Shown here piece after piece: positions 14,908-40,507 of a stretch of DNA of 59,195 nt (positions are counted from its first letter, which is position 1; every line of letters starts with the position of its first letter). Under the pieces are notes generated by a model. That model did no database searches and had not been told where the DNA came from. It saw nothing but the letters and a program-made list of their open reading frames with translations. Origin of the DNA: a virus. A program made the position numbers and the translations under genes. The stretch spans positions 1-59,195 of the IMG/VR virus record IMGVR_UViG_3300044825_002433. One strand, given 5' to 3'.

Positions 14908-17900
14908 CCGCATCAATAGGTGCCTAGATAATTAAAGTTATCTAGAAAACCTCGTGAATTGCTGGAACCCTTCTTCCAGTGCTCGCTAACCCTTCGGGGG
15001 AACCTTGAAAATTAGACCCAGTAACTTCTGGGCGTTATGTAAGACCTCTTCTGAGCACGCAGAGGTCGAGGGAATCAGCAGCGAAGCCGTGTGGGAACAT
15101 ACGGAACGTTCAGAGACTAGATGAAGTAATCCAGAACGGATGAAACATCCAAGAGCGCGAGGCTCCTAAACAGGTAATGCTGTAGGAGATGATATAGTCC
15201 GAGCTTACGCGATAGCAAAGCGTAAGAGCTGGAAGATAAAGAGCTTCCAGGATAACAAACTGCCTGCGTACGTTGTAGAGATGGCTGCTGAGCCTGTAGT
15301 TGTTCACGATTTTAGTAAACAACCAGGCCAAACTGTGCAGCTGGACAGATATCGCTTCTGGGGTAATCCCGGTAGCAAGGAGTCACGCGAGCGTACTGCT
15401 GAGCAGACCATTGGTACTGCAAACAGCAGGAACATCGTAAAGGATAAAGTTCTTGTGACTCTTCGTGAGTACACAGGTCCTGCAGATCCTAGTGATCCTA
15501 CACAGCCTAGTACTTTTAAGATTGCTAAAACCTTGGCCCTCGCTTGAGAAATCAGGTGATGCGCACTCCGTGAATTGCTGGAACCCCTCCTGACGTTTTA
15601 TTATGTCCGGGAAATCAGCAGCCGAGCTTGATGAGTAATCATCTTGAAGGTTCAACGACTAGGGTTGGCGGTTGTACGCTTGACCTGTTGCCTAGTGCGG
15701 ATCAGGCTTTTCTAAAAGCCTGTCTCTTTGGGGACGGTTGGTTAGGTCTTCAACGCAAAAAATACGTACACCTACGTATAGGTCACTCAGCTAAACAACT
15801 TAACTGGCTGACCTACAAAGCTAAGAAGATAAACCAAATACTAAATAAAGATAGAAAAATTTTAGGGCCTTATAAACAATCCGACGGTTCTAATAAAGAT
15901 AAGATTCACTACTCTTATCTCTATTGTGTTGATGACCACGAATTATTTTCACCGTGGTTTGATCGTTGGTATGAGGTTCCTTCAGTCGGGAAAGTAATAA
16001 AACACGTTACTCCCGATTTTCTATCTGGATTAGGTCTCCCAGAGTTAGCCGTCCTGTGGTGTGATGATGGCTCTGTCAGTTCATCTGATCGAGTTACAAA
16101 ACATTACCTTAAAGATGGAACTCTTAGAGAATATCCGTACGTAGAAGCGCAAGGTCAGATTGCCCTATGCTCTTTAGATTATGAAGAGCACCAGCTTGTA
16201 AGAGAGTGGCTTTATTCCATAACAGGCGTAAAGTGGCGCTACTCTCCTAGAAGCAAGGAAAATAGGGCTACCTTAAACATTGGAAAAAGGGCTTTACGCG
16301 AATTTCTACCGCTCATCGCCCCTCATATTCCTTCGTTTATGGCGTATAAAGTCGATTCCTCCCACTGCCGGATACGGTAAAGGAGGAGACCCCACGAGCG
16401 CGGAGCATCCAAACAGGTGAAGCTGTGGATGATGATATAGTCTGAACTTACGGGATGGTAAACCGTAAGATCTAGAGGATAAAGAGCCTCTAGGGTAACA
16501 ACTTGAGGGAAACTCTGATTACCGCCCAACGTTTACTGTTGGATACAGGTAATCTGACTGCTTTCCATCAATCCATCGGGTCTCTGACTCTTTTGGATGA
16601 CTACACACCTGTGGTCGCTTAGCTAGAAACAGTTAAGGCAATTTAGGGTGAATTGCTGGAAGCCCTTCCCCCTTCAGCAAGGGAAAAGGATTGTGCACCA
16701 CAACGTAATCGGTAACGATAGGCGTGACGGTTTAAAAAACACAACTCCGCATGGGTAATCAGCAGCCAAGCCGGAGAATATACGCTCTGGAAGGTTCAAC
16801 GACTAGATCCCGAGAGGAAACTCAGTAACGGATCCACGAGTGCCCTATACCTGACCTTCGACAACAAAAAAGAGATCCCTCTTTCGAAGTAAACAAGGAA
16901 CATCTTCACTGGCGTTAGCGTAAATAAGCTCACCGAAGTGTAAGGCGTTCTTAGAATACATTCGAAGGTTATACTCTTTATCTACTCCATCTAGAGTGGG
17001 GTAGATATGTTCCTTGTTTAAGAATTCTTTTAATTGTTCGGCTAACAGCTTGCTGCCTGTCGTTATTTTTGCTTCTATAGAGTTTTTCCTTTTGGAAATA
17101 GAACCGTTTCCATCGAAATACCCTCGAAGCCAAAAAATAAAAAGGCTGTGCGGCAGTTTAGGAGCTTCAACAATTAAAGATTTTTTCGGAGGAACTCCGG
17201 CTTTCATTAGATGAACTGCAGCATTTTTTGCTGTTAGTTTTATTTGCCATAAGTTATTTGTTTCGCGCTCTTTGCGGAGTAAACCAGGGTAACCTAAGTC
17301 TTCTGCAAAATGTTCAAGCAAGTAGCTGTCTGCTTCTTTTAAAGCTATGGCAAATCCTTTTGGCTCATTATGTTCCCGGACGATCCAACCGTCTGCGGCT
17401 ATCAGCCCCAACCAATAAGCTTTACGAGGACTGTCGATGTCCGAAAAAAAGTTTTCATTAGCTCCGCTCTTTCGGTAGCTAAAGACTCTTTTTGCTCCGG
17501 GCTTTGCCTCGTAAACATCGCTATACTTTCGTTCGCCTTTCTTCTGCGCGTATGAGAGTACTCCGTGCTTCTTACGAGCATGGGTGGCGGCTGTTCTGGA
17601 CAAGCCAAAAGATCTAGAAATTTCCGCGTCTGAATACAAAGAAGTCAACTCATCCAGTTCCTCTTTTGTCAGATCGGTTAGAGCCCGCTCAGTCACGTCG
17701 AAGAAGGTAAAGATATAGTCTAACACTGCTCGATGATAAAGAGCAGTCGATCGGATAAAGAGCCGATTGGTCTCTTATGAGATTTTTGAGACAGGCGCTG
17801 GCGTGATCGGGTGTTCATTAATGAACTCCTGAAAGCCGTATCTAAGGGTCAGTCTTCTGACTCTCAGGGTGGTTACTACTATCCTGGTGACCTCGCTGTT

Positions 17901-19607
17901 GGTGCTTTAACCTACAGCAACGCCGAACAAGCCAAGTTCGACGTCAAGGACGACCTGCTGCGTGTGGTCAAGAGCCTCCGCAAACGGAACGTCCCCACCT
18001 ACCAAGACGGGTTCTATCGCTGCGTTTGCGATCCAACCTTCTTGCTGCACCTGCGCCAAAACAGCGACTTCCGTGAAGTTGCTCGTTATCCCGGCAATGG
18101 GCAGATCAACCCGCTCATGTCTTCGATGCAGCCTAACGCTGCCATCTACATGGGCCAAGGTTTCGGCCAAGCCACTTTCGTGGCGGGCGAACCCATCATG
18201 CCTAAACAAACCTGGGCCTGCGCGGCGTGAGTCGCGTAGCAAACGGGGTGAATTCAGGGAACCCCTCCTTAAATAAAGGGGAATCCTGAGCCAAGCCGAC
18301 TGAGGAATCGGTCGGAAGGTGCAACGATCAGGAGTCGAGTCCAGACCGGACAGTAATACTCCCACGAGCGCCCCGCTACTCAGATGCGTTTAGCCACAGC
18401 AAAGCTTCTACTCGCTTTCTAGGGATACATACTTCTTGGTTAATCTCATACAACCAAGATAGTACTTCTTTCGGTTTTTTCCCGAAAGTGATTGTATAAA
18501 AAGGTTTCTGAGATTTCAGAAGTTTTTCTGTAATCGAGCAAGAAACTTTAAACTCTTCGGATACCCAGCTATTCCAGATAGCTATAAGGTCCATTGAGCA
18601 AGAACCAAAATTTAATGTTTTGGTTTGGTTTTTTATACAACCATCTCCATCTAAAAGTCCTCTCAAATAATGAGGACGCAATTCCTTGGAAAGACCAGTG
18701 TAAGCTTTATTTTTTGTTGTGTCTTCTGTTATTCCAAAACGTCTTAAACAATCTACTAATACACGGTTGTATACTCTCAACCGTCCGTAACTGGTGTTGT
18801 TTTTGTCTCCTCTGGAATATATAGCTACTTTAGAAGCACTTTTGAGTTCCACAGCTAGTGTTTCGAGGACACAATAATCAGGTTCTTTAAGTTCTATGCT
18901 CAAAAATTTATTTTTGTCATAGCTCAAACAACCGTCTGTGGCTATTAATCCAAGGAAATATGCTTTTCTTGGTGTATCTATCTCGGCAAAATACAAACTT
19001 TCGGGTGAATCTAAATTTTTGTGAGGAGTTCCTTCTCCTGGCAGTAGTATCTCGCCCGTAAGCCGACCTTGACGACTTTCTGTTTTTTCGGTAAAGGACC
19101 GTATCCCGTATTTTTTCCTTAGAGAAAAAACCGTGGATACAGCCAAATTTAGTTGTTTGGCAATCTGAGTATCTGAAAATTGGAAAGTTAAAGTTTCTAA
19201 AACTTTTGGGTCGACTGTAACTTTTTTGCCTTGAGCCATGTGAGTAGATGAGATGATCTGAGCTGCATCAATGGGAAAGATGCAGATCTAGGGGATAAAG
19301 AGCCCCTAGGATAACACACCTGACGGGTTTCGTGTTCGAAGGAGTGCGCTTTTTCGAGTCCACCAACATGCCTTCGCAGTCTCAGACTGCAACTATCGGT
19401 GGTTCTGCCGCTTCTTACGAAGCTGCAATTGGTATGTTCTTCGGTCCTCAGAGTGTTGGCGTCGGCATCGGCGGTAACAACGCTCAGGTTCTTTTGAACA
19501 ACAATGACGACTTCAGCCGTTTCATCATGATGATTTGGAGCCTGTACGCAGGTTTCGAACTTCTGAACGCTGATTTCGCCACCATCGCTTACTCCTTTAA
19601 CGCTTGA
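14857..19607 (+). CDS. Major capsid protein, five exons split by four group I introns
   Basis: The proposed join is 14857-14907, 15263-15544, 16506-16619, 17796-18203 and 19323-19607, giving 379 residues (17+94+38+136+94), a normal size for an HK97-fold capsid protein. Each junction keeps frame, follows a U at the exon end and a G at the intron end, and restores protein sense: ELYR/PAYVVEMAAEP, TLALA/RETLITAQ, TPVVA/RWRDRVF, EPIMP/TGFVFEGVRFF. The start is TTG 14857, with GGAGG eight bases before it and an in-frame stop just upstream. Position after portal and scaffold fits the capsid gene. Unspliced, every exon hits a stop within a few codons. Splice points are inferred. Confidence 0.82.
14908..15262 (+). 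ncRNA. Group I intron 1 (no endonuclease gene)
   Basis: A 355-base intron with the core strings GTGAATTGCTGGAAC, AATCAGCAGCGAAGCC, GTTCAGAGACTAGA and GATATAGTCC in order. Near the 3' end is a hairpin with GGAA/TTCC paired round the loop ATAAAGAG that all four introns share. CTAGATAA/TTATCTAG makes a perfect hairpin near the 5' end. It contains no long frame, so it is the minimal form of this intron family. The P1 pairing is poor by eye, so the 5' boundary is the least certain of the four. Confidence 0.8.
15263..15544 (+). CDS. Capsid gene exon 2
   Basis: This exon encodes 94 residues from PAYVVEMAAEP to TLALA, including DRYRFWGNPG. It meets TGA directly after the proposed splice site, at 15545-15547. 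An isolated 88-residue gene from ATG 15281 would be a misreading. Confidence 0.8.
15545..16505 (+). ncRNA. Group I intron 2, with a sense-strand endonuclease gene
   Basis: A 961-base intron. P1 can be drawn between the exon end TCGCT and GGTGA ten bases into the intron, with the usual U-G pair at the splice site. The core holds GTGAATTGCTGGAAC, AAATCAGCAGCCGAGC, AAGGTTCAACGACTAG and GATATAGTCTG. The terminal hairpin is GAGG-ATAAAGAG-CCTC. The intron ends AACTTG before exon 3. A LAGLIDADG gene occupies most of its length. Confidence 0.85.
15628..16380 (+). CDS. LAGLIDADG homing endonuclease (intron 2)
   Basis: A 250-residue frame on the sense strand. The two helix motifs are KACLFGDGWLG (about residue 30) and LAVLWCDDGSV (about residue 145), as in the LAGLIDADG_2 style, with tracts between that would form the DNA-contacting saddles. 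Such enzymes cut intronless alleles and spread the intron. The first ATG lies within the intron core: its first dozen codons overlap AAGGTTCAACGACTAG, so a later start is possible. It is read from the same strand as the capsid gene, unlike the other two intron genes here. Confidence 0.82.
   Translation: MMSNHLEGSTTRVGGCTLDLLPSADQAFLKACLFGDGWLGLQRKKYVHLRIGHSAKQLNWLTYKAKKINQILNKDRKILGPYKQSDGSNKDKIHYSYLYCVDDHELFSPWFDRWYEVPSVGKVIKHVTPDFLSGLGLPELAVLWCDDGSVSSSDRVTKHYLKDGTLREYPYVEAQGQIALCSLDYEEHQLVREWLYSITGVKWRYSPRSKENRATLNIGKRALREFLPLIAPHIPSFMAYKVDSSHCRIR
16506..16619 (+). CDS. Capsid gene exon 3
   Basis: This exon encodes 38 residues, RETLITAQRLL to DDYTPVVA. It is the shortest internal exon and too short to look like a gene alone. 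A TAG follows one base after its end. The codons stay in frame with exons 2 and 4 only if both neighbouring introns are removed. Confidence 0.75.
16620..17795 (+). ncRNA. Group I intron 3, with an antisense endonuclease gene
   Basis: A 1176-base intron. The exon end TCGCT can pair with GGTGA just before GAATTGCTGG. Core strings GTGAATTGCTGGAAG, TAATCAGCAGCCAAGCC, AAGGTTCAACGACTAG and GATATAGTCTA match introns 1 and 2. The shared hairpin is ATCGG-ATAAAGAG-CCGAT. It ends GAGACAGG before exon 4. The endonuclease gene lies on the opposite strand between the conserved CACGAG string and GATATAGTC. Confidence 0.85.
16845..17726 (-). CDS. LAGLIDADG homing endonuclease, antisense in intron 3
   Basis: A 293-residue leftward protein. 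An N-terminal helix-turn-helix (LTSLYSDAEISRSFGLSRTAATHARKK split over residues 28-54) precedes two LAGLIDADG helices: AYWLGLIAADGWI with Asp112 and FWLRGYFDGNGSI near residue 210. Both acidic residues are present, so cleavage activity is plausible. Because it is antisense to the capsid gene, it cannot be translated from the capsid pre-mRNA and needs its own promoter on the minus strand. Confidence 0.85.
   Translation of the reverse strand: MLDYIFTFFDVTERALTDLTKEELDELTSLYSDAEISRSFGLSRTAATHARKKHGVLSYAQKKGERKYSDVYEAKPGAKRVFSYRKSGANENFFSDIDSPRKAYWLGLIAADGWIVREHNEPKGFAIALKEADSYLLEHFAEDLGYPGLLRKERETNNLWQIKLTAKNAAVHLMKAGVPPKKSLIVEAPKLPHSLFIFWLRGYFDGNGSISKRKNSIEAKITTGSKLLAEQLKEFLNKEHIYPTLDGVDKEYNLRMYSKNALHFGELIYANASEDVPCLLRKRDLFFVVEGQV
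17796..18203 (+). CDS. Capsid gene exon 4
   Basis: This is the largest exon, 136 residues from RWRDRVFINELL to EPIMP. If unspliced it would run on through KQTWACAA to a stop at 18230. The proposed 5' splice site after ATGCCT allows a four-pair P1 with GGGC ten bases downstream, the same spacing as in intron 2. Confidence 0.8.
18204..19322 (+). ncRNA. Group I intron 4, with an antisense endonuclease gene
   Basis: A 1119-base intron. Where introns 1-3 have GCTG paired with CAGC, this one has CAGG (GTGAATTCAGGGAAC) with CCTG (AATCCTGAGCCAAGCC), a compensatory change that supports the pairing. AAGGTGCAACGATCAG is the variant of the core string. The shared hairpin is GGGG-ATAAAGAG-CCCC. It ends CACACCTG before exon 5. 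The endonuclease gene is again on the opposite strand. Confidence 0.85.
18376..19239 (-). CDS. LAGLIDADG homing endonuclease, antisense in intron 4
   Basis: A 287-residue leftward protein related in layout to the intron 3 enzyme: an N-terminal helix-turn-helix (FSDTQIAKQLNLAVSTVFSL, residues 21-40), then AYFLGLIATDGCL (Asp102) and HYLRGLLDGDGCI near residue 200. Both catalytic Asp positions are kept. The phrase DTPRKAY before the first motif matches DSPRKAY in the other enzyme, so the two share recent ancestry. It too needs a minus-strand promoter. Confidence 0.85.
   Translation of the reverse strand: MAQGKKVTVDPKVLETLTFQFSDTQIAKQLNLAVSTVFSLRKKYGIRSFTEKTESRQGRLTGEILLPGEGTPHKNLDSPESLYFAEIDTPRKAYFLGLIATDGCLSYDKNKFLSIELKEPDYCVLETLAVELKSASKVAIYSRGDKNNTSYGRLRVYNRVLVDCLRRFGITEDTTKNKAYTGLSKELRPHYLRGLLDGDGCIKNQTKTLNFGSCSMDLIAIWNSWVSEEFKVSCSITEKLLKSQKPFYTITFGKKPKEVLSWLYEINQEVCIPRKRVEALLWLNASE
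19323..19607 (+). CDS. Capsid gene exon 5
   Basis: The C-terminal 94 residues, TGFVFEGVRFFESTN through FATIAYSFNA, then TGA. The hydrophobic strand-rich end and GGNNAQVLLN region suit the capsid core. It is followed after 14 bases by the next virion gene with GAGGAG as ribosome-binding site. Confidence 0.8.
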   Translation, partial: TGFVFEGVRFFESTNMPSQSQTATIGGSAASYEAAIGMFFGPQSVGVGIGGNNAQVLLNNNDDFSRFIMMIWSLYAGFELLNADFATIAYSFNA

Positions 19608-21113: not shown

Positions 21114-21551
21114 ATGATGACTGCGACTCAGATCAAAGAGTTCACTTTTAAACCCAATGGCGTAAAGATTGAAGTTTTAAATAGTCACGACGAAGGTGAA
21201 TATTTTATGGTTCGGTCTTACACGACCGGTAAGGTTTTCTTCGCGCACAAGAGTCAGATTCTCGAAGAGCTTAAAGAGAAAGAAGAAACAGGAGACAAAC
21301 CCAAACAGCGCCGTGGGCGGCAGATCGTTAAGCCCGAAGTTCAGGCGTTTAATCGAATTAACTTGAATTCTGCTACGCCCGAGTTACTTACTCAAATTCT
21401 TAAAGGTGTTGGTCTTAAAACTGCGATTCAAATTAAGGAACTTCAGCAGAGCCTTCCTGGTGAACGTTTCAGCAAATTGGATCAACTGAAAGCTATTACT
21501 CAAGTTGATTGGGATTCCGTTCTGGAAAACGGAAATGTGTATGTTGAATGA
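21114..21551 (+). CDS. Protein with C-terminal helix-hairpin-helix domain
   Basis: About 145 residues. The first half is beta-rich (KIEVLNSHDEGEYFMVRSY), a basic linker follows (KPKQRRGRQIVK), and the last 60 residues, INLNSATPELLTQILKGVG then IKELQQSLPG, form a ComEA-like helix-hairpin-helix that contacts DNA backbone non-specifically. The adjacent ATG at 21117 is equally possible as start. Its end overlaps the convergent HNH gene by 56 bases. The role in the phage is unknown; DNA handling near the head is a reasonable guess. Confidence 0.7.
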   Translation: MMTATQIKEFTFKPNGVKIEVLNSHDEGEYFMVRSYTTGKVFFAHKSQILEELKEKEETGDKPKQRRGRQIVKPEVQAFNRINLNSATPELLTQILKGVGLKTAIQIKELQQSLPGERFSKLDQLKAITQVDWDSVLENGNVYVE

Positions 21552-22053
21552 CGTTTAAATTAGCAAATTCTCCGAAATATTTTTTGGCCGCTTCGTTATA
21601 TGCGTTAGCGGCCTCTTCTTTTTTGTTGTAATACCCTAAAGACACTTGTTTTTCATTTATTTTTATGTAGGCGTGCCATTTTCCTTTTGTGTGTCTGCGA
21701 ACTCCTTTATATCCTGATTTGTTATTTCTTTTTTTACTGCTATTTTGATTTTGCTGTGTTTGCGTAGCCTTTCTGAGATTTTTTATATCGTTATTAGTTC
21801 TGTTTCTATCTACGTGATCTATTTGAAGTTCTCCAGGATCCTCGCCGTAAAAAATATACCAGATTAATCTGTGAGCTAAATACAGTTTATTATCTATTCT
21901 TACGTAATAATATCCAGTTTTCTTATTCAAACATCCTGCTCGACTTCCTTTTTGTGCACGTGGACCTTTATCCACCCTCCACACCAGGTTGCTTGGGGAT
22001 CTGCCATCAATAGTTAGTTCTTCTTTTACGATGCTAGGAATTGTTAATTTCAC
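21496..22053 (-). CDS. HNH endonuclease with AP2 domain
   Basis: A 185-residue free-standing homing-type nuclease. The HNH_3 region runs about residues 60-110 (LAHRLIWYIFYG, then QIDHVDRNRTNNDIKNLR with the His-Asn-His residues). An AP2 DNA-binding domain follows (SGYKGVRRHTKGKWHAYI, then YYNKKEEAANAYN). The length is normal. It is antisense to its neighbours and overlaps the 3' end of the helix-hairpin-helix gene, as for a recent insertion. AT-rich base use differs from the capsid genes. Confidence 0.9.
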   Translation of the reverse strand: MKLTIPSIVKEELTIDGRSPSNLVWRVDKGPRAQKGSRAGCLNKKTGYYYVRIDNKLYLAHRLIWYIFYGEDPGELQIDHVDRNRTNNDIKNLRKATQTQQNQNSSKKRNNKSGYKGVRRHTKGKWHAYIKINEKQVSLGYYNKKEEAANAYNEAAKKYFGEFANLNVIQHTHFRFPERNPNQLE

Positions 22054-25075: not shown

Positions 25076-25630
25076 ATGGCATCTACTTCAACTAACAAGT
25101 CTCCGTGTCTGATCGACCGCCCTTTTTTACGAGGCGCCCGCATCACCAGCGCATCAACGACTTGCGATCCAACTAATCCGAACCTTACGGATCTCATCCA
25201 GTTGGTCCGCGTGGGTGACCTCCCGTCCGAAGATGCTGCCCTTGTCGAAGATCTTACGATTGTTAGCAACGAAGGTTTTCCTGATACCAGCGGTCGGCGT
25301 ACTTGTGAGTTAGGGTTCTACGTATACGCTCCTAACCAATCAGCCCCATCTACGTCTTCGGCGCTGATGGTCAGTCGAGTGGAGGTTGGTCTTAGCGGGT
25401 CCACCCGCGGTATTCCGCAAAGCGTGCAGCTATTTGCTGTAAACGCTCCGGTCCCCCAAGCCGGCGACACCAACCTGGTTGCTCCGATTCAAATTGGTAA
25501 GGGTGAAGGTTTGTACCTTGAGAAAGGGTACATCCTCGCCGTGGGCTATCTCGGTACAGGCGGTGCTGCTGTGTCCGGCGGCCTAAGTCCCTCCGGTATC
25601 ACTGTATTCGCTCAGGGCGGGTTCTATTAA
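25076..25630 (+). CDS. Unrecognised beta-rich virion protein
   Basis: A 184-residue beta-rich protein with Ser/Thr-rich strands and a hydrophobic, Gly-rich C-terminal half (GLYLEKGYILAVGYLG). It lies in a rightward run of virion genes, four bases before the GTG of the next one. Jelly-roll type head or fibre component is a guess from composition. Confidence 0.55.
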   Translation: MASTSTNKSPCLIDRPFLRGARITSASTTCDPTNPNLTDLIQLVRVGDLPSEDAALVEDLTIVSNEGFPDTSGRRTCELGFYVYAPNQSAPSTSSALMVSRVEVGLSGSTRGIPQSVQLFAVNAPVPQAGDTNLVAPIQIGKGEGLYLEKGYILAVGYLGTGGAAVSGGLSPSGITVFAQGGFY

Positions 25631-25633
25631 TCA

Positions 25634-27166
25634 GTGGCCCGCAGAAAAGGCTCTGATAACTTCGGGTTCAGGTCTTTAAAAGGTGCTAAAGGCGTTGAAC
25701 TTCCGAAAACAATTAAGGGTGCGGATAACACAAACGAGTTGTCCTCACCTTTATCTTTCGATCGCCGTTTTAGACCGGCGCTAAACACAAAAGATTTTAG
25801 TTTAGTTAGCGATTACGACTACGCTTCTCTCTGGGCTCGTTGGCGCCGCGGCTACGAACTCAGTATGTATTCGCAAGAAGCATACGGCGGCCTAACGTAT
25901 TCTTTTAAATATTATGTTTCCGGCACTCCTGGATTTGGAGTTTTTCTGCCGGGAATGTGCTTCATGTATCCGACTACGCGTACGGATATGCGGATGCACA
26001 TGGTGGGCATTAGACCTAGGGATTCTTTTAATTTTTTGAATTTTGGATACTCCATCACGTCTGTAACTGATTACGACGCAAATACTTATGCTGTTCGATT
26101 GAACTCCAACTTCGGAGCTCCTATTTCTTTTTTCGCCGGTGAGGTTTTATCTAACCGATTTAATGCAGACGGAACAGCAAAGACTTACGGATTTAACAAC
26201 TACACAGTTACCGCTGTGGGGATAAACGGAGTTCCAGCAAATCCGTCATATCTTCCGATTTTTAATACGTTATTTTTATCTCATAGTGCTCAAACGAGCT
26301 GGTCTGTCGTAGACGCTAATACATTAGCTGTGCCTGCCACGGGGCCTCCGGCTGTTGGAGAATATCTAACAACCGAAATGCGATCTCAGTGCACGTGTCC
26401 TGACTTTTTGGCACGTGAGAATTTTAATCTTTACGACGTTTCTCTTCGGCGTAGATATCCATACACGAAGACTCAAAATATAGATCCTGGTTTTTATGAC
26501 GCGGGTCCTGATGGAAGCACTCGACGCGTTCCCGCCATGGACAATCCAGGCTTTGCTAGGACCTTCGGTTTTATATATTTAAATGAGATTTATAACATTC
26601 CTAGAATTACGGAGAGCGTTTATTCTGATCCAAACCTTTATTACTACCAACCACGCTGGTGTAAGCACATTTACGCAGCTATGTGGGATTTACAGCGTAA
26701 ATACAATCAAGAATCAGTAACTAGCTCGTGGCTTCCGCAACCTAACGACGAACCGCTAAATGAATACTACCGAGAATATTTTGATAAAAATTTAGCTAAG
26801 CAAACTGACTTCTTGAAACGGGAGAAAGATCTTGTGTGGTGGGAGCGTTACAGCCCGAAGAAAGACGACATGCCGACACACATGATGTATCCGGATATGT
26901 ACAACATGATGACAAAAACATTAAACGCAGGTGGATTGTCTAGTTTCGCAACGTTACAAGCTCCAAGCTTCGAGATGTTCACTACGGCGGAGTTTGATCC
27001 GTTCGACCCCGCTTCCTTTGTAGTAAATACCTATGACGGCGGTACGTACCAGAATGGTATCTTAGTAACACAACCGACTAACATACTCGATGGAGGTTCC
27101 TACCTAAATGGTGCGCTGATACCTCCAACTGGTTTCCCTTCCTTGATAAACGGCGGTGTGTACTAA
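25634..27166 (+). CDS. Virion protein with SWIM-like zinc motif
   Basis: A 510-residue protein from GTG 25634. It has the pattern CTCPDF near residue 253 and CKHIYA near residue 342, that is C-x-C ... C-x-H, the SWIM-type zinc signature, with an unusually long insert. The surrounding region is Tyr-rich and beta-rich. Similar CxCPDF and CKH pairs occur in phage structural proteins as I recall them. The C-terminus has two related motifs, DGGTYQNGILV and DGGSYLNGALI, probably short repeat units. The stop overlaps the next ATG by one base. Confidence 0.6.
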   Translation: MARRKGSDNFGFRSLKGAKGVELPKTIKGADNTNELSSPLSFDRRFRPALNTKDFSLVSDYDYASLWARWRRGYELSMYSQEAYGGLTYSFKYYVSGTPGFGVFLPGMCFMYPTTRTDMRMHMVGIRPRDSFNFLNFGYSITSVTDYDANTYAVRLNSNFGAPISFFAGEVLSNRFNADGTAKTYGFNNYTVTAVGINGVPANPSYLPIFNTLFLSHSAQTSWSVVDANTLAVPATGPPAVGEYLTTEMRSQCTCPDFLARENFNLYDVSLRRRYPYTKTQNIDPGFYDAGPDGSTRRVPAMDNPGFARTFGFIYLNEIYNIPRITESVYSDPNLYYYQPRWCKHIYAAMWDLQRKYNQESVTSSWLPQPNDEPLNEYYREYFDKNLAKQTDFLKREKDLVWWERYSPKKDDMPTHMMYPDMYNMMTKTLNAGGLSSFATLQAPSFEMFTTAEFDPFDPASFVVNTYDGGTYQNGILVTQPTNILDGGSYLNGALIPPTGFPSLINGGVY

Positions 27167-27777
27167 TGACATCTACTCCTAGTATTCTCCTTTTAAAACG
27201 GAGTGGTCAAGCCTCTGATCGTCCGAATACATCCGTCGTACAGAACGGTGAGTTGGCTTTGGCCGTGGGCGCAGCGGATCCGGGGCTATATTTTGAAGAT
27301 TCGGCTGGCGCTGTTCGGAAGATCGGGCCTTCCGCATACGGAACCACGGCTCCTAACGCAACGCCTGTAGGTCTTGCTGGAAATTCTGTTGGGGAAACCT
27401 GGACTGACAGCTCGACCGGGAATTACTTCTTTAAAGTTTGGACTGGGGCATCTTGGCAGACGATTGGATCTGCTTACGCTACAGTTGCGGGTACTGCCAC
27501 AACGGCGACTACAGCAACCACTGCGCTTAGTGCGTCAACAGCAGTTTTAGCCTCTGGAGCTGTTTTAGCTTCGGGAGCTGTTCAAGCACAAACAGCAGTT
27601 TTAGCTTCTGGAGCTGTTTTAGCTTCGGGAGCTGTTCAATCCGCCACCGTGGTTCTTAGTGGCCTGCCTGCCGCTTCTACCAGTTTGTCAGGAACCCTAG
27701 TTTATCAAGTGCAGACGTCGGGTTCCTTTAGTGCTGGATTGTATGTTCGAGCGACTAATACTTGGTTGCTTGTTTAA
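27166..27777 (+). CDS. Tail-fibre-like protein with 18-residue repeats
   Basis: A 203-residue protein. The opening LLKRSGQASDRPNTSVVQ then GELALAVGAADPGLYFED is the typical N-terminal anchor of phage tail fibres. A Thr/Ala-rich stalk follows, with two copies of an 18-residue unit (TAVLASGAVLASGAVQAQ), and a short C-terminal strand domain (SGSFSAGLYVRATNTWLLV). It is short for a complete fibre, so it may be a connector to a receptor-binding protein. Its end overlaps the Dps-like gene on the other strand by four bases. Confidence 0.7.
   Translation: MTSTPSILLLKRSGQASDRPNTSVVQNGELALAVGAADPGLYFEDSAGAVRKIGPSAYGTTAPNATPVGLAGNSVGETWTDSSTGNYFFKVWTGASWQTIGSAYATVAGTATTATTATTALSASTAVLASGAVLASGAVQAQTAVLASGAVLASGAVQSATVVLSGLPAASTSLSGTLVYQVQTSGSFSAGLYVRATNTWLLV
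27537..27644 (+). repeat. 54-bp tandem repeat, two copies, in a fibre gene
   Basis: AACAGCAGTTTTAGC begins copies at 27537 and 27591. The units differ by only a few bases over 54 bp and encode 18 residues each. The period of whole codons lets copy number change without frameshift, giving a stalk of variable length. Confidence 0.75.
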
Positions 27778-28307
27778 GGGCGAAGCGTGCTCTTCAAGAA
27801 CCAAGAAGCTTTAAACATCGCTTTCACCAGATCGGCTGCATAGTTCTCCACATCCGGAGCCCCAACTTCGTCGGCAAGTTTTCCTAAATCCTTAGCCATA
27901 AAGCCGCAGGTTTCTAAGTTTTTTAAATATACAGTCAGCGATTCCCGAGTTTCGTAAGATTTAGTGTGTTTGAAACCTTTGTATGCGTTTAAAAGACCTC
28001 GCTGACACATCGGCAGCAAGAAATCCATAGTCCGAACAAACTCAGCCAGCGTGTCGAACTGATCGATGTGGGACTCGTACTGCTCTTTGAGGAACTCGTG
28101 GATGGGCAAAAACAAAGGCCCTTCGATATTTAGATGAATTAAGTGACTCTGAACGTACAGCTGATGTACATACGAAGACAGGGACACCAGTCCAGAAATT
28201 AAATCCTGGATTGACGCCCCCGTAGCTTCCTGTTCCAACTCTTCTAACGGATTCTCGGACTCCTCGGAGGGAATCGACGCAGTGTTAAAAGAGCCGGAGA
28301 AAGTCAC
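27774..28307 (-). CDS. Dps-like ferritin
   Basis: A 177-residue four-helix protein. VQSHLIHLNIEGPLFLPIHE and HIDQFDTLAEFVR match the Dps signature. By alignment with E. coli Dps in my head, His58, His70, Asp85 and Glu89 sit at the ferroxidase positions, while the fifth (Asp67 in E. coli) is Lys74. Dps proteins form 12-mers that oxidise and store iron, remove peroxide and often bind DNA. An acidic N-terminal tail of about 28 residues does not look DNA-binding. It is the second gene of a leftward pair with an excisionase-like gene, inside a rightward virion block. Confidence 0.8.
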   Translation of the reverse strand: MTFSGSFNTASIPSEESENPLEELEQEATGASIQDLISGLVSLSSYVHQLYVQSHLIHLNIEGPLFLPIHEFLKEQYESHIDQFDTLAEFVRTMDFLLPMCQRGLLNAYKGFKHTKSYETRESLTVYLKNLETCGFMAKDLGKLADEVGAPDVENYAADLVKAMFKASWFLKSTLRP

Positions 28308-28325: not shown

Positions 28326-28577
28326 TCACACCGCACAAGCGGCTTCACTTTCCACTTTAGCGTTAGAGGAGGTTTTCAGATATTCCTGCAGCGCGGCTTT
28401 ATCCACGCGATACAGAGATTTAGCGCCATTCGGCTGAAGATTCAGGTACACAGTCTTAGGCCAACCGCCGGGTTGGTTGGATTCAGAGAGCGCGATACGC
28501 TTGCGGACAAAACCAGAGCTGCAGTTGAGCAGTTCTGCGGTTTCAGCAATCGTGAGCAGGGTTTTACCGTCCGACAT
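28326..28577 (-). CDS. Excisionase-like helix-turn-helix protein
   Basis: An 83-residue protein with a MerR/AlpA-like winged helix: LLTIAETAELLNCSSGFVRK is the HTH of the excisionase (HTH_17) type and SLYRVDKAALQEYLK is the closing strand-helix. Such proteins bend att DNA to direct excision or act as small repressors. It lies 18 bases upstream of the Dps-like gene, so it could regulate that gene instead of the distant integrase at 39662. Confidence 0.75.
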   Translation of the reverse strand: MSDGKTLLTIAETAELLNCSSGFVRKRIALSESNQPGGWPKTVYLNLQPNGAKSLYRVDKAALQEYLKTSSNAKVESEAACAV

Positions 28578-28705
28578 CAGGTATGCGAGGAGAGGGTGGC
28601 GGCTACATATTACCTTTATTTCTTCTGTGAGCGTGACCTACTTGTGTTCCCTAATGTGTTTTTAAGATTTTGCTTGGTAACATTAAGGGGTGCTGTAGGA
28701 CTCAA
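28578..28705. promoter_or_regulatory. Divergent spacer between excisionase-like gene and rightward gene
   Basis: This AT-rich 128-base spacer separates genes going both ways and must hold their start signals. TAACAT near 28677 could be a -10 box for the rightward gene. No repeat element of the 7806 type is present. An HTH-gene operator here is likely but not visible by eye. Confidence 0.3.
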
Positions 28706-28951
28706 ATGATCCGGATTGCAGGAGAGATTTTTAAAAACTATAACTCTCCGAAACGGGACGTTCAGGGAGGCAAGGAATTTTCCGTGGCGGCTAAGGAAAA
28801 CGGGAGAGTCCGCCTAGTGCGTTTTGGAGATCCCAATATGGAAAACCGTAGCGACGATCCCAAACGTCGTGCCGCATTTAGATCCAGACATAGCTGTGAC
28901 GAGAAGAAAAGTAAGTTAACTCCAGGGTATTGGAGCTGCCGAGCTTGGTGA
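28706..28951 (+). CDS. Conserved phage protein with VRFGDPNME motif
   Basis: An 81-residue protein starting at ATG 28706. KENGRVRLVRFGDPNMENR, RRAAFRSRHSCD and KLTPGYWSCRAW are motifs I know from an unnamed small protein family found in many phages near head genes. Two Cys and a His could bind zinc. The function is not established. Confidence 0.7.
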   Translation: MIRIAGEIFKNYNSPKRDVQGGKEFSVAAKENGRVRLVRFGDPNMENRSDDPKRRAAFRSRHSCDEKKSKLTPGYWSCRAW

Positions 28952-29342: not shown

Positions 29343-30710
29343 GTGGCTCCTCTAACTCCGCAAGAAAAACAATGGTTATCGGCCATTAGTTTTGCGGAAG
29401 GAACTTACCGTAAAGGTTTAGGGCCGCAGTACAACATTATGTTTGGAGGCGGCACTTTTTCGGATCTGTCGCGCCATCCAGACACCGTAGTTAAAAAACC
29501 AGGTATAGCCAGTGCAGCAGCGGGCGCGTATCAGTTTATGCCCGGAACTTGGTCTGCTGTTTCCAAGAAGCTTGGCTTAAAGGGATTTGGTCCGGCTGAG
29601 CAAAACCAGGCTGCTCTCGAACTAATCCGTCAGCGTGGAGTAGATCCTCGTAAAGATCCCATAACTCCAGAGACGATTTCAAAACTTGCTCCTGAGTGGG
29701 CTGGGTTGCCCACGTTGCAAGGTAAAAGCTACTACGCGAACCAGTCTGTTAAGAGATTCGCGGATATTCAAAACTTTTTAAAAACTACAGGCGGCGCCAT
29801 CCCTTCGGGATCTTCTGTTCAAAATCCCGCGAGTCCAGCGGCCGCTCGGGTATCCCTTCCTCGATTCGATTTCAAAGATGCGGTCAAGAAATTATTGCTT
29901 AGATCATCCTTAGAAAATGTTGGAGCACCTGTTGCTGTAGGCGGTCAAGCCTTAGCTATCCAACAGCAAGCCAACGCTTTACGAGAGGAAGGGAAAGACG
30001 ACGAGGCTGAGATTCTTGAATCTCAAATGACTGCCAGTCTGGCTGCAGACGCCCAAACACCAGCCGCAGATCCAACTAGTCTGGTTCGAAACATCTTGGA
30101 AATTCGAAAGCAGGCTGCTGATTACGACGCTCAAGTATCTCAAATTGAGAAATCTGTAAATGACGTTGCAATAAATCAAACCGCACAAGAGGTTGGAACT
30201 AATCTGCGTACCGCGGCTCGTCCTGCTCAGGGGTTTGCGCGGACGGCTAGCGGGGGGATCGCTTATCCCAATGCCGTAGTTACGTCAGCGGTAGACGCCT
30301 CGGGTGAACCCGGTCTCGATTTTGCTTTGGCTGGCGGACGCGGTGCGGCTTTTGCTCTCCCTTTTAAAGCTCAGGTTTTAAAAGTCGTTAAAGAACCGAA
30401 TGCTGGTAATCGCGGCCCTGGCGGCCGTGGTTATGGTAATTATGTTGAGCTTCGCGGTGTTTCTCCCGAAGGTAAGCAATTTGATGCTCTAGTCGCTCAC
30501 TTCGATGCGGTTAATCCGAATTTGAAGCCAGGGATGGTATTGAATCCTGGAGCAATTATCGGTAAACAAGGTGAAACCGGCCGAGCTACGGGTCCTCATA
30601 TTTCGTTAGACTTTTTCGATCCAGGTAAAACGACAGCCAGTCGGGATATATTACGTATAAGGGACATAGTTGCTAGTAGAATAGCCAAAGGACTGCCTCC
30701 GTTTGGATAG
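29343..30710 (+). CDS. Virion lysin: GH104-like domain plus degenerate M23-like domain
   Basis: A 455-residue protein from GTG 29343 (CCGTGGCT). Residues about 1-145 follow the lambda-endolysin (GH104 transglycosylase) pattern: SFAEGTYRKG, YNIMFGGGTFSDLSRHP and AGAYQFMPGTWSAV, Glu19 being the probable catalytic acid. A helical linker follows. Residues about 325-445 resemble a LytM/M23 peptidase: GLDFA, LVAHFD and TGPHISLDFF. Of the M23 positions, Asp, AHF His and PHI His remain, but the first ligand His is Glu and the last is Ser, so zinc binding is doubtful. It probably cuts peptidoglycan during entry; it has no signal peptide. Confidence 0.8.
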   Translation: MAPLTPQEKQWLSAISFAEGTYRKGLGPQYNIMFGGGTFSDLSRHPDTVVKKPGIASAAAGAYQFMPGTWSAVSKKLGLKGFGPAEQNQAALELIRQRGVDPRKDPITPETISKLAPEWAGLPTLQGKSYYANQSVKRFADIQNFLKTTGGAIPSGSSVQNPASPAAARVSLPRFDFKDAVKKLLLRSSLENVGAPVAVGGQALAIQQQANALREEGKDDEAEILESQMTASLAADAQTPAADPTSLVRNILEIRKQAADYDAQVSQIEKSVNDVAINQTAQEVGTNLRTAARPAQGFARTASGGIAYPNAVVTSAVDASGEPGLDFALAGGRGAAFALPFKAQVLKVVKEPNAGNRGPGGRGYGNYVELRGVSPEGKQFDALVAHFDAVNPNLKPGMVLNPGAIIGKQGETGRATGPHISLDFFDPGKTTASRDILRIRDIVASRIAKGLPPFG

Positions 30711-39425: not shown

Positions 39426-39665
39426 ATGAACAAAGTCGTTCAATTCTTAGCTGCGGCCCTGGGCGTTGTAATTACAGTTGTCGGAACCACCGTGGCTGTA
39501 GATAATCGCTATGCGAAAAGCCAGGAAGTTCAGCAGCAATTGAACGACTTTTACGACAAACAACTCAAACTTAAGATTCTGGAAATCGATTTAAAGCCCA
39601 ATCCGACTCCTGCGGATCAGGCTATGAAGCAGTATTTGCTGCAGGAACTCAATCGAAAGAATTAG
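39426..39665 (+). CDS. Small membrane-anchored protein
   Basis: A 79-residue protein with one N-terminal hydrophobic helix (VVQFLAAALGVVITVVGTTV, residues 4-23), then a polar coiled-coil domain (QQQLNDFYDKQLKLKILEID). It could be a signal anchor with the helix outside, as in spanin- or holin-like accessory proteins, but the lysin gene is far away. It overlaps the integrase gene end by four bases. Confidence 0.6.
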   Translation: MNKVVQFLAAALGVVITVVGTTVAVDNRYAKSQEVQQQLNDFYDKQLKLKILEIDLKPNPTPADQAMKQYLLQELNRKN

Positions 39666-40507
39666 AGAACCGGCATCTCATATTCTTTCGTCACGTTTAC
39701 GTAGTGTTTCCAAATAACTTCTGAGGAATTCCCTGCCCAGTTGGCAATCTGTGCCACGGGAATACCAGCTTCGACCCAGCGACTCAGAGCTGTGTGCCTG
39801 AAGTCGTAGGGTCTATATCTGTAACTAATTAGATCCGCCTCTTTCAGTTTTTTCATCCGTTTGTACACGAAACTCTGGTAGGAATTCCTGTTTCCTGTGA
39901 AGATAAATTCTCCAGTTTGCGGGGTCTCGTTCAGGATGTCCAGACAGCGCTTGTTAAGAGGAACCCAGCGCTTCTTGTTTGTTTTTGTTGAATTTTTAAG
40001 CCCGTGGGTGAGGGTGAAATTGCTGTGAACCAGCACTTTTTCACCTTTTATGTCGTCCCATTTGAGTGCGCGCACTTCGCCCGTCCTCATTCCGGTCTGG
40101 AGCATGAACTCTGAGTAGTTCGCCCAGTTTGTCCCTTTAAGGTTGCTCTCTAACCCAACTAAAACCAAGGCTGTCTCAACCCTGGGAATCACGATAATGT
40201 CCTCATCCTCTTGAGGCGCCTTAGGCATCCTGTATGTAGCTACAGGGTTTTTATCTAGCAGGCCAATATCCTCACTTGATGCCCATCTGTACAGCGATTT
40301 GACGTACATCGCCATCCGTCGACTCGCTTTGACGGGTTTCTGCTGCAGGACCCAGGTTAATACCAATCTGCCGTCTTTAAAATCCTGAATTGGGCACCGG
40401 GCTAGCCATTTGTCGGCCTGGGCGTAATCCGTAACGACACTCGTGGGCGACAAAGAGATCTCCCTTTCGGCCTTGAACTGGTGCCAAGCCTCGATCAGTT
40501 TGAGCAC
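39662..40507 (-). CDS. int: Tyrosine recombinase (integrase)
   Basis: A 281-residue protein with a SAM-like N-terminal DNA-binding part (about residues 1-90) and a catalytic domain: Arg141 in QTGMRTGEVRALKW, a Lys in the 175-180 beta turn (TKTNKKRWVPL), Arg237-His238 in YDFRHTALSRW and nucleophile Tyr269 in WKHYVNV. It is short, lacking an arm-binding domain of lambda type. It could integrate the phage into the host genome. No att core next to the gene could be identified by eye; the tRNA-like sequence at 44752 is a candidate. Confidence 0.9.
   Translation of the reverse strand: MLKLIEAWHQFKAEREISLSPTSVVTDYAQADKWLARCPIQDFKDGRLVLTWVLQQKPVKASRRMAMYVKSLYRWASSEDIGLLDKNPVATYRMPKAPQEDEDIIVIPRVETALVLVGLESNLKGTNWANYSEFMLQTGMRTGEVRALKWDDIKGEKVLVHSNFTLTHGLKNSTKTNKKRWVPLNKRCLDILNETPQTGEFIFTGNRNSYQSFVYKRMKKLKEADLISYRYRPYDFRHTALSRWVEAGIPVAQIANWAGNSSEVIWKHYVNVTKEYEMPVL

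Follow-up and report, generated by a model that had tools for sequence, protein, structure and literature searches.

Within a block of virion genes in a 59,195-nucleotide stretch of viral DNA (IMG/VR record IMGVR_UViG_3300044825_002433, positions 1 to 59,195; here called the window), one short open reading frame is transcribed against its neighbors and resembles the Dps-type mini-ferritins, small protein cages that bind iron and limit oxidative damage. As phage Dps genes have usually been reported as occasional extras, the locus raises the question of whether this gene is a passing acquisition or a retained function of its phage lineage and, in the latter case, what a Dps protein with an altered ferroxidase center might do in an infected cell.

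A Virus-encoded Dps-type Ferritin

The gene, dps, occupies positions 27774–28307 on the minus strand, begins with a GTG codon, and encodes 177 amino acids. Its product matches the Pfam family Ferritin, PF00210 (5.4e-11, 43 bits, against a curated cut-off of 24.5 bits), PHROG 3636 (7.8e-25), and Dps proteins of the PDB with E-values down to 3.8e-9. An AlphaFold2 model of the single chain, for which 68 phage sequences served as input, shows a Dps-like arrangement, a bundle of four helices in which a short BC helix separates helices 2 and 3 (mean pLDDT 79.9, pTM 0.73, with residues 1–28 below a pLDDT of 50). Dps proteins are the top Foldseek matches of this model among solved structures (PA0962, 2.9e-6), and a structural aligner superimposes it on MrgA of Bacillus subtilis (Z 20.9, rmsd 1.8 over 145 residues) and on Thermosynechococcus Dps (Z 20.8, rmsd 1.9 over 147 residues). 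Because bacterioferritins rank only slightly below the Dps proteins in the list of structural matches, the fold alone cannot split these two groups; the sequence matches do split them. A first-pass annotation, made from the nucleotide sequence without database searches, had named the product a phage-encoded Dps-like ferritin. That assignment is borne out by a ferritin profile match well clear of its cut-off, by a predicted four-helix Dps-type fold with Z values of about 20 against solved Dps, and by conservation across a family, and on this sequence and model evidence the reading frame is a genuine virus gene for a Dps-type ferritin.

The family to which the protein belongs is large. Scanning a virus collection with the single protein recovered 42 relatives, and scanning with an alignment recovered 343 stretches encoding a relative, of which 80 were kept; residue conservation was counted over 68 distinct family sequences. 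Purifying selection on dps is strong, with a median core dN/dS of 0.045 (36 usable pairs). In a phylogenetic tree, a long branch with support of 100/100 splits the family from the sampled Dps proteins of other phages and bacteria; the order among these other proteins is unsure, and the bacterial sequences come from the PDB. Two pattern-based scans of genome contigs (84,980 species), which reach close relatives only, found no close bacterial relative of dps, and for that reason no bacterial donor is named.

Fixation in a Cyanophage Lineage

The large terminase of the window is 52% identical over its full length to that of Synechococcus phage S-EIV1, the next phage record reaching 25%, and many further window genes match S-EIV1 as well, so that the window is best regarded as a fragment of an S-EIV1-related cyanophage. 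From this relation, its host would be a cyanobacterium. To avoid bias toward genomes found through dps, a synteny scan was anchored on a neighboring virion gene (25076–25630). Among the 80 contigs recovered, 19 end before the site of interest, and every one of the 61 that reach it carries dps, although these 61 are not all independent. The small helix-turn-helix (HTH) gene that lies upstream of dps is also present at 60 of these sites, the remaining contig ending inside dps. In the large records tested, dps is single-copy (17 of 17). Its location is not the same throughout the wider group: in S-EIV1 itself and in the relatives L035, L038, L039, L040, and L041, it lies elsewhere in the genome and without the HTH gene of the window.

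The gene is a core gene of the S-EIV1-like cyanophage lineage. The antisense placement within the virion block, which the first-pass annotation had called unusual, is indeed so, yet it is fixed wherever the site could be assessed. An account of dps as a passenger (moron) gene was considered and is rejected for the lineage, as none of the assessable contigs, interdependent as some of them are, lacks dps at the site.

A Ferroxidase Center Altered at Site B

Equivalences to E. coli Dps residues are read from alignment, with the E. coli numbering used in PMC6150300. The residues predicted to build the inter-subunit center, two histidines of one subunit and the acidic pair of its neighbor, are all kept and are invariant in 68 of 68 sequences: H58 (E. 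coli H51; codon 28134–28136, minus strand, as are those that follow), H70 (H63; 28098–28100), D85 (D78; 28053–28055), and E89 (E82; 28041–28043). At the fifth position, K74 (D67, in ferroxidase site B; 28086–28088), neither Asp nor Glu, the canonical residues of that site, occurs in any of the 68, which instead have Lys (64), Asn (2), Gly (1), or Arg (1). The earlier description of four retained ferroxidase positions with Lys at the fifth thus holds for the window protein. Three further residues are unexpected from the canonical center, with E62 and C101 invariant and H80 kept in 66 of 68 sequences. Also invariant is D152, whose segment aligns with the part of bacterial Dps that forms the acidic pore.

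In one alignment of nine other phage and bacterial Dps proteins, the residue at E. coli position 67 is Asp or Glu in six and Gln or Gly in three. A non-acidic residue at this position occurs outside the window family too; among the sequences compared, what is peculiar to the family is Lys and its near-fixation. Nor does the family fall within the His-type Dps proteins as defined in PMC6675082, since E. coli position 78 is Asp (D85) in all 68 members.

In canonical centers, residue 67 contributes, via a water molecule, to keeping the site-B iron in place (PMC6675082), and in E. coli Dps a salt bridge between Lys48 and Asp67 lowers access to the second site (PMC6150300). We infer that Lys at this position most likely leaves site B weakened or blocked and the remainder of the center, with its invariant residues, in place. 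The change probably alters iron handling by the phage protein, and it could abolish ferroxidase activity, in which case the cage would be catalytically dead and kept for partner binding or for passive holding of metal. Consistent with such a loss are the family-wide absence of the carboxylate and the appearance of the new invariant residues E62 and C101 along with the near-invariant H80. The invariance of the four other center residues, however, is difficult to account for if the protein binds no metal, and the cyanobacterial protein NpDps4, with a non-coordinating Asn at position 67, still oxidizes iron with O2 (PMC6675082), so that we consider a dead cage quite unlikely and prefer a center that would still bind iron.

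An Acidic N-terminal Tail

The first 31 residues (28215–28307, minus strand) form an acidic tail without Lys or Arg that is predicted from the low pLDDT values to be disordered, its composition being taken from counts of the alignment columns. The motif at its start, MT[FY]S..F, is conserved in part of the family and is not universal. In the window protein, no Lys or Arg precedes residue 74, and the pI is 4.9 (family median 5.2). DNA binding of the E. coli type needs a positively charged N-terminal tail, and acidic tails free of Lys are also seen in Dps-like proteins whose protective effect does not involve DNA binding (PMC7762939).

Since a basic tail is absent and the protein is acidic overall, DNA binding of the E. 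coli type is unlikely. Where the first-pass annotation had suggested that the protein might protect host or phage DNA, the direct route through DNA binding is accordingly made less likely. A classical Dps, coating the DNA of phage or host by means of its N-terminal tail, could be argued from the Dps homology and from the name of PHROG 3636, “DNA binding protein,” but it runs against the charge of both the tail and the family as a whole and is very improbable.

An Antisense Cassette with a Winged-helix Partner

The HTH gene (28326–28577, minus strand, 83 amino acids) precedes dps by 18 bases on the same strand and is conserved with it, the pair being transcribed against the late genes. Its scores fall just under the cut-offs of the families it resembles (HTH_17, 4.9e-5 and 23.9 bits against 27; TIGR01764, 4.2e-6 and 27.0 against 28.8), and it matches the excisionase family PHROG 2907 at 8.8e-4. 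The protein is modeled as a winged helix (mean pLDDT 76), with structural matches to BldC, a regulator (Z 7.4), and to RdfS, an excisionase (Z 7.3), values in a range where a common arrangement may suffice to produce the match. In many of its relatives, the HTH protein has a short C-terminal tail with a Cys placed 2–4 residues from the terminus (ACAV, ACSF, ACTF), and some are without it; judging from these endings, a redox role for the Cys tail is conceivable.

An intact-looking gene for a tyrosine-type integrase (39662–40507; PHROG 1, 5.5e-36) is located 11 kb from the HTH gene and invites the idea that the HTH protein is its excisionase. Of 17 large relatives, however, only 1 has a full-length match to this integrase, two others matching its last 46 residues only, so that a partnership with the far more widely retained HTH gene is unlikely, and an excisionase role toward this integrase is unsupported. 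The pairing with dps in the earlier description stands; its excisionase-like member we prefer to regard as a regulator that acts locally, on the divergent intergenic region at 28578–28705.

This divergent region contains a TAATAT-like box (28607–28612, minus strand) that, in an alignment of 44 relatives, is conserved in many of them. A sigma-70 scan of 28578–28705 gave nothing beyond chance, as did scans with promoter and terminator consensus sequences, and the putative promoter of dps is the conserved box alone, which the sigma-70 scan did not find. Beyond the cassette, a divergent plus-strand gene (28706–28951) encodes 81 amino acids that match PHROG 7595 (unknown function; 1.4e-15) and are 60–94% identical in most relatives, and farther on lies a plus-strand gene (29343–30710) matching a PHROG named “endolysin” (3.3e-26).

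On its other side, dps faces a convergent plus-strand tail gene (27166–27777; PHROG 356, minor tail protein, 4.8e-19), with a 4-base overlap at the two stop codons; by gap counts, stops that nearly touch are the rule throughout the lineage. Direct repeats (LASGAVLASGAVQ) occur inside this tail gene at 27540–27640, in its C-terminal part. The plus-strand virion block also includes minus-strand genes at 16845–17726, 18376–19239, and 21496–22053 that are possible homing endonucleases, two of them matching the endonuclease family PHROG 4645 and the third having an HNH-like appearance.

Possible Association with the Virion

Because members of the family adjoin virion genes in several different layouts, the main rival to a role inside the infected cell is a Dps cage that is enclosed in the virion or bound to it, where it might carry iron, shield packaged or entering DNA, or serve as a structural or ejected protein, with the disordered tail acting as a docking signal. 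Besides the position of dps in the virion block of the window, this proposal draws on L039, in which dps directly follows a gene for a virion structural protein (PHROG 1645, 4.9e-143), on S-EIV1, L038, and L040, in which the stop of dps overlaps the start of the next gene, and on uncultured phage “prohead protease” proteins that contain Dps-like domains. It is weakened by transcription of dps in the window lineage against the late genes, from a divergent region of its own, and by the N-terminal motif not being universal in the family. On balance, we judge it unlikely, though a serious contender.

The proteins named prohead protease for which a Dps-like fold was seen are BFVD entries A0A6J7WPK9, A0A6J7XDU5, and A0A6J7WIS1; these predicted folds hint that Dps domains are delivered into procapsids in other phages. 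A more specific proposal joins the lineage-wide core mini-ferritin, its Lys-occupied site B, and the tail into a cage with one iron per center that enters the virion via its N-terminal tail. We hold this to be decidedly improbable; if it were true, each new host would receive from the phage a particle active toward iron and in redox chemistry.

Relation to Known Dps Systems

Phage Dps proteins are, as a kind, already known. Dps genes are carried by Lactobacillus phages (PMC6669764) and by the Gratiaviridae (PMC8008677) and are also found in Campylobacter phages and in cyanophage S-SRM01, and the S-EIV1 homolog had been annotated. Those of Lactobacillus herelleviruses, CP220-like Campylobacter phages, Synechococcus phage S-SRM01, Bacteroides phages, and Gratiaviridae are likewise phage-encoded, but they share only 16–20% identity with the window protein, lie outside its clade, and, where aligned, have Asp, Glu, Gln, or Gly at position 67. 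What is new is the fixation of dps in a lineage as an antisense cassette, the divergent clade, the loss of the site-B carboxylate throughout the family, and a tail that is acidic and devoid of Lys and Arg.

The closest known system is the DNA-binding ferritin-like protein of S-EIV1 (KJ410740, AHV82153), a member of the same family with 48–52% identity in which the four center residues are kept and position 67 is also non-acidic, from a phage that the terminase places in the same lineage. It differs in having Gly rather than Lys at position 67, and its gene differs in genome location, in lacking the HTH partner, and in being start/stop-coupled to another gene. That coupled gene (KJ410740 17153–18619; L044 20441–21907) is annotated as a sulfate adenylyltransferase, likely a misannotation; it has no Pfam or PHROG match, and for want of such support the name is not used as a clue to function. 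Relatives in the same place are very variable. Where the window has the HTH gene and dps, following the gene at 25634–27166, S-EIV1 has after the counterpart of that gene a small antisense gene (KJ410740 69314–69535; L210 30315–30536; AHV82239) with a weak HTH_17 match (0.023). A profile comparison of AHV82239 with the window HTH protein gave no support for homology.

Canonical Dps proteins (E. coli, Listeria, B. subtilis MrgA, P. aeruginosa PA0962) share with the window protein the predicted fold and four of five center residues, whereas Lys at site B, the acidic tail without Lys or Arg, HLN in place of HWN, and the invariant C101 and E62 set it apart. The His-type Dps of cyanobacteria (NpDps4, TeDpsA; PMC6675082) resemble it in lacking a coordinating carboxylate at position 67, in their cyanobacterial setting, and in fold (Z about 20). 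In NpDps4, however, His78 replaces Asp and position 67 is Asn, whereas the window family has Asp at 78 (D85) and Lys at 67 (PMC6675082).

Proposed Role and Implications

The reading that we favor, and hold with moderate confidence, is that of a Dps-type mini-ferritin, encoded by a core gene of the S-EIV1 lineage and expressed with its HTH regulator, whose cage binds Fe(II) at the intact part of its center during infection. Expression probably takes place within the infected cyanobacterium, driven by a promoter of its own and alongside the small winged-helix regulator, and the protein would assemble as a 12-subunit cage. Fe(II) would be bound by H58 and H70 of one subunit together with D85 and E89 of its neighbor; with Lys in place of the carboxylate for the second iron, site B is probably weak or blocked, and the center is probably slow or mononuclear. 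During replication of phage DNA in a photosynthetic host, such a cage would withdraw iron from reactions with peroxide, and its most likely role is to clear Fe(II) and peroxide in the course of infection.

In a widespread cyanophage lineage, dps and the small gene upstream of it are fixed and strongly constrained, and this fixation suggests that infection of these photosynthetic hosts constantly requires control of free iron or of peroxide. With its uniform change at site B, the family poses a direct chemical question: whether a Dps protein with only its first iron site can oxidize iron and can protect.
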